The notes beneath the pieces are model-generated. The model searched no databases. It was not told the origin of the DNA and was given only the letters and a program-made list of their open reading frames with translations. A DNA stretch of 47,768 nucleotides, taken from assembly GCA_020353555.1 (NCBI GenBank), contig CP070697.1, positions 6,100,022-6,147,789 of the forward strand, written 5' to 3'. The position numbers and the translations under genes are program-made. Shown here one piece after another: positions 25,992 through 26,593 of the stretch. Numbering within the stretch: the first letter of the stretch is position 1; each line of letters begins with the position of its first letter. The stretch is from Desulfobacterales bacterium (lineage in GTDB: Bacteria; Desulfobacterota; Desulfobacteria; Desulfobacterales; G020353555).

Positions 25992-26173
25992 ACGGCGGGG
26001 GAACACGGTCCGGTTAAGGGGCCCACGTAGGTTTTCGCGAACATTGGTTTCCAGCTGAGTTCGGTGCGCGCGAGTTGTTCCGGCGCGAAGACAACTTGGG
26101 GGGGCGAATTGCGTCTTGGGCCCCGTTTCTTCAGCGGAAGCCTTAATCCACTTGGTTTCGCAAAGGATCCGCC

Positions 26174-26593
26174 ATGCAGAAGAAAAATGCCATTTTCAGA
26201 ACGCTTGCTGTTTTGCTGGGGGTTCAGCTGATCTTGGCGGTCGTGGCAACTGCGAGTCAAGCCGGTCAGGTCGCAACTATTCAACGGATCGGGGTGCAAG
26301 AAGCCCGCCAGAAAAGACAGTCCGGCGAGGCGCTGCTGGTTTGCTCCTATCGTGATGGGCGCTGTAAGAAACTCCTGCTGGCCGGGGCCCTTTTGCGAAG
26401 CCAATTCGAGGCCCGACTGTCTTCGCTTTCCAAAAAGACGGAAATTATTTTCTACTGCGCCTGACGGAACGAAGCCACTTCGGTCGGTCTGGCGAAAAAA
26501 TATCTTAGGCAAGGCTATTCCAACGTCAAAGTGCTCAAGGGCGGCGTAAAGGCGTGGAAGGCGGCGGGCTATCCGATGGGCGATCAGAAGTAG
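26174..26593 (+). CDS. Exported rhodanese-domain protein, probable selenoprotein (TGA read as Sec97)
   Basis: The frame runs 26174-26464 to a TGA and then continues in the same frame to a TAG at 26591. Residues 1-30 form a signal peptide. The body is a single rhodanese domain: LLVCSYRDGR, LLLAGALLRSQFEARL, then IIFYCA before the TGA, and RNEATSVGLAKKYLRQGY, VLKGGVKAWKAAGYP after it. Reading TGA as selenocysteine gives 139 aa with Cys95-Ala96-Sec97. Cys95 is in the place of the catalytic rhodanese Cys. The post-TGA part is fully conserved, which argues against long-standing decay. A SECIS-like hairpin starts 10 nt after the TGA. The alternative is a recently broken gene with a Cys-to-stop change. 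Confidence 0.68.
26465..26494 (+). promoter_or_regulatory. SECIS-like hairpin after the in-frame TGA
   Basis: GCCA at 26474-26477 pairs with TGGC at 26490-26493. Inside is a 2x2 internal loop and a short TC/GG stem, with loop GGTC at 26482-26485, 18-21 nt after the TGA. Bacterial SECIS loops sit at about this distance and expose G/U, as in E. coli fdhF. A competing CGAAG/CTTCG hairpin (26470-26482) weakens the call. Confidence 0.4.

Follow-up and report, generated by a model that had tools for sequence, protein, structure and literature searches.

A probable selenocysteine-containing rhodanese-fold protein with a C-x-U motif in a Desulfobacterales genome, a sister variant of the known CxU rhodanese selenoproteins

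The window (the whole 47.8-kb stretch of DNA analysed here) contains a gene whose frame opens with an ATG (26174-26176) and runs for 96 codons to a TGA (26462-26464), beyond which 42 further codons lead to a TAG (26591-26593). This TGA, at codon 97, is the only one in frame and lies two codons past Cys95, giving the motif CAU at residues 95 to 97; all these coordinates proved to be as claimed in an earlier reading of the sequence alone. That reading also anticipated that automated annotation would cut the gene, and the standard ORF list does indeed end it at 26464, with a product of 96 aa. The genome is a single contig of 6.84 Mb with an estimated completeness of 79.6%. Within the window the gene stands alone, flanked on one side by a gene for an RRM protein and on the other by a convergent aldehyde ferredoxin oxidoreductase gene. 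No gene neighbourhood was conserved beyond close relatives, and no neighbour pointed to a function. The features of the locus are collected in Table 1.

Table 1. Features of the rhodanese gene and its surroundings, in window positions.
Feature	Position	Strand	Basis
Shine-Dalgarno-like AAAGGA, 6 nt upstream of ATG	26162-26167	+	read in sequence
Whole gene of 139 codons and a TAG; the UGA is probably read as Sec	26174-26593	+	translation; PF00581 match across TGA
Probable Sec-type signal peptide, basic at its start, with the core LAVLLGVQLILAVVAT and likely cleaved at SQA, after Ala30	26174-26263	+	read by eye
Rhodanese-like domain	26276-26578	+	PF00581, 36.6 bits; subfamily alignment A1
Cys57 codon (LVCxY), invariant in subfamily	26342-26344	+	invariant alignment columns; comparison with LYCAU members
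Cys95 codon TGC, aligned with rhodanese catalytic Cys; second UGA in 11 relatives	26456-26458	+	alignment, DNA reading
UGA codon 97, probable selenocysteine	26462-26464	+	UGA in 57/57 DNA-verified family genes including the window's; Sec machinery of the genome
Bacterial SECIS-like hairpin in family register; loop GGUC 26486-26489; bulged or mismatched G at 26482	26479-26496	+	family covariation; top match of model R1; weak folding energy

The Pfam Rhodanese model matched residues 78 to 131, on both sides of the TGA, with a score well above its cut-off of 22.2 bits. Because this match spans the TGA, the part downstream of it is homologous protein rather than a chance reading frame, and the proposal that the last 42 codons preserve the rhodanese fold is borne out. 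In an alignment with solved rhodaneses, Cys95 falls on their YC, where the active-site loop begins, and occupies the catalytic position.

Relatives were collected by a protein search covering 291 genomes from the order and by profile searches of 395 phylum genomes, 58 relatives, 389 class genomes and 29 genomes of another order, so that the sampling of the subfamily covers one phylum. About 70 subfamily members were found across these searches, and every listed match contained one or two in-frame TGA codons, with none lacking them. In the profile search of the 395 phylum genomes, members scored at least 114 bits, except for one fragment at 80.7, whereas other rhodaneses scored no higher than 69. 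A single-sequence search of genome contigs returned only distant ordinary rhodaneses, and the matches listed from a plasmid search were MoeB-type rhodanese domains at 30% identity.

Fifty-seven distinct genes (47 at first, then 10 more) were read at the DNA level. The TGA always fell in the codon-97 column, with ungapped flanks; no Cys occupied this column in any of the 57, nor was a Cys form found among the roughly 70 members from this one phylum. The CxU form accounts for 46 of the genes. The remaining 11 are UxU (L020, L036, L037, L039, L043, L071, L080, L108, L112, L116 and L117), a second TGA replacing the catalytic Cys; here the first bases of the two UGAs are 6 nt from each other, and one conserved hairpin lies downstream of both. 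In the phylogeny built from the 47 genes read first, the UxU form requires four changes, at least two of which are forced by well-supported branches.

In bacteria, the SECIS is a hairpin with a G in its small apical loop, located just downstream of the UGA (PMC1088965). The 48 nt from the TGA onward align without gaps in the family and, counting the T of the TGA as 1, positions 20 to 24 pair with 30 to 34 around a loop at 25 to 29, which reads GGUCN in 36 of 47 genes. Stem pairing was observed in 227 of 235 cells (96.6%), compared with 166 ± 5 (71%) under a synonymous-codon null, and GGU occupied loop positions 25 to 27 in 38 genes, compared with 6.5 ± 2.3 in the same null. Changes on both sides of the stem numbered 29 against 7.7 in shuffles, pair 21/33 having changed on both sides in 20 genes and pair 24/30 in 9. 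Since positions 21, 33, 24 and 30 are all third codon positions, these changes fit RNA pairing better than a need of the protein. A strict folding test placed GGUC in the predicted loop of just 15 of the 47 relatives, and covariation and the codon null were therefore used in place of folding alone. At the family level there is thus a hairpin of the bacterial SECIS type with covariation, of which the window copy is a weak example.

The sequence-only reading had placed a hairpin with a GGTC loop 10 nt after the TGA. A GGUC hairpin conserved in the family is present, but that register (a GCCA/UGGC pairing of 26474-26477 with 26490-26493) is not conserved and was rejected in favour of the stem at 26479-26496. 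A covariance model, R1, built from 44 relatives with the window excluded, found its best site in the whole window at 26474-26501 (15.7 bits, rough E 0.008). In the family register, two of the five pairs (20/34 and 21/33) are broken in the window gene. Single-sequence minimum free energy folding of 26462-26510 was uninformative (z -0.88), a fold of 26455-26505 (z -3.4) did not expose the GGUC, and an Rfam search of the region gave nothing meaningful. Decoding may be inefficient, or the window's element may be eroding.

These features bear on the possibility that a former selenoprotein gene is decaying in this lineage, having lost SECIS pairs, so that decoding would be poor and the main product a truncated protein of 96 aa. 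The window hairpin has the weakest folding energy (-2.2 kcal/mol) among the 47, and it competes with a more stable structure (-19.6 kcal/mol) that includes the UGA. However, the 42 codons behind the UGA form an unbroken frame, and their differences from the nearest relatives lie mainly in third positions (8, 9 and 17 at codon positions 1, 2 and 3 against L019; 10, 10 and 19 against L020). Furthermore, the window copy retains its GGUC loop and remains the top-ranking site of the family model, and a stem of six pairs can still form with the G at 26482 bulged. We consider such decay unlikely.

A second alternative supposes an ordinary Cys rhodanese gene in which the TGA arose by a chance nonsense mutation or through an assembly error. 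Local errors are possible in a one-contig genome of modest estimated completeness. The TGA column shared by the 47 genes first read nevertheless essentially refutes this explanation, and the same column holds TGA in all 57 distinct genes, drawn from many families, and is followed by a covarying hairpin.

The complete machinery for selenocysteine decoding was detected in the same genome, where selA, selB, selC and selD were each found above curated cut-offs, as a check proposed alongside the original claim had called for. The tRNA-Sec scored 75.4 bits (cut-off 47), has the anticodon TCA and was confirmed by ARAGORN; SelB scored 373 bits (curated cut-off 242), SelA 620 (268) and SelD 370 (125), the SelD gene itself having an in-frame TGA. 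Two SelD-like stretches (L057 and L058) are present in the genome; both contain a single in-frame TGA, and L058 is partial (positions 3-153 of 311). A reassigned code, in which UGA would stand for an amino acid genome-wide, has nothing in its favour except the in-frame UGA itself and is ruled out by normal termination in the window, where 9 of the 33 ORFs longer than 250 aa stop at a TGA, so that this codon is not reassigned; the Sec machinery and the TGA stop of the same gene in several relatives likewise argue against it.

We conclude that the gene very probably encodes a rhodanese-fold selenoprotein in which UGA97 specifies selenocysteine. The basis is computed: homology across the UGA, the presence of the UGA throughout the subfamily, the conserved and covarying hairpin and the complete decoding machinery. 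The C-x-U selenocysteine rhodanese first proposed is further supported by the literature, which confirms such proteins among the bacterial selenoprotein families: reviews describe rhodanese selenoproteins with UxxS, UxxG, CxU (NF041203, TKB26178.1) and UxxxxU motifs (PMC13188914; PMC9312934). The UxU motif is absent from PMC13188914, and the deep-Sep text makes no mention of rhodaneses.

The closest known group is that of NF041203 (rhodanese_LYCAU, "rhodanese-like form 3"), which shares with the window protein the rhodanese domain, the CxU in the active-site loop and the register of the hairpin. The window protein reaches 70.2 bits against a cut-off of 115, which places it in a sister subfamily; the eight subfamily members tested (the window protein and seven others) score 46 to 73 (45.9 to 72.7 for the relatives), while true LYCAU proteins score 150 to 180. 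The subfamily also differs in possessing LVC-x-Y, with the invariant Cys57 sitting where ordinary rhodaneses have a D-V-R motif, and in that some of its members are UxU. Moreover, a Cys form exists in LYCAU (L045) and none was found in the window subfamily; of the homologues checked at position 97, close ones all have TGA and those of the more distant LYCAU family TGA or Cys. A true LYCAU selenorhodanese is encoded in the same genome (L006, 1390-1791; 150.6 bits, CAU). The Cys-form gene of L045 (169-570) keeps a complete SECIS-like stem, probably a fossil hairpin left by a recent Sec-to-Cys change. Given this fossil hairpin and the register common to both groups, the window subfamily and LYCAU probably descend from one CxU ancestor. 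The window gene is best described as a sister variant of the already known CxU rhodanese selenoproteins, and its subfamily may already be hidden in earlier catalogues, where generic rhodanese entries would leave it uncounted.

Other Sec rhodaneses (UxxS, UxxG and the UxxxxU of TsoB, NF045694; PMC13188914) likewise combine a rhodanese domain with Sec inside or close to the active-site loop, but their Sec lies at the place of the catalytic Cys or at other spacings. TsoB is in addition a DsbD fusion, and the window protein scores 21.9 bits against its cut-off of 805. GlpE-type thiosulfate sulfurtransferases (NF001195; PDB 1gmx) are also single rhodanese domains, whose catalytic Cys aligns with Cys95; they differ in having one Cys and no Sec, and the window protein scores 25.6 bits, short of the cut-off of 102. 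Two further rhodaneses were observed in the same genome. One (L001, around 1636) has UxxG (AYUAAGARS) at the catalytic position, followed by a domain that appears ferritin-like or rubrerythrin-like by eye; the other (L012, around 1669) is a two-domain rhodanese with one in-frame TGA and the motif CMGLRUPYS (CxxxxU).

The window protein is probably exported through its putative signal peptide; N-terminal extensions similar to its own occur in the subfamily alignment in three relatives (L019, L020 and L022). Most relatives have no such extension. The predicted location would accordingly be the periplasm for the window member and the cytoplasm for most relatives. GlpE is cytosolic.

In the selenoprotein reading that we favour, SelB and tRNA-Sec would decode UGA97 as selenocysteine under the guidance of the hairpin, so that the active-site loop of an exported single-domain rhodanese-fold protein would contain the pair Cys95-Ala-Sec97. 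Cys95 would attack or carry sulfane sulfur, and Sec97 would form a selenenylsulfide with Cys95 or receive the sulfur. Since Sec beside Cys95 would allow a selenenylsulfide, the arrangement points to redox or persulfide handling, and the protein may act as a periplasmic thiol/selenol oxidoreductase or a persulfide carrier instead of a classical one-cysteine sulfurtransferase. To a redox role alone we would give somewhat short of an even chance.

Tentatively, and with rather more doubt than confidence, we suggest that these genes form a rhodanese-fold subfamily of their own, Sec-only and not yet covered by a model, in which a Cys-Sec pair (Sec-Sec, UxU, in several lineages), together with the extra invariant Cys replacing D-V-R, makes a redox centre rather than a sulfurtransferase site. 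With standard annotation, the window gene and its relatives come out truncated at the UGA, and none of the tested members scores above the cut-off of a curated model. As no Cys form was found in the family, the usual method, which relies on Cys/Sec pairs, detects such a family poorly. In the UxU members, a single active-site loop would hold two Sec residues next to each other, a case in which the natural use of a diselenide or selenenylsulfide by a rhodanese fold can be tested directly.
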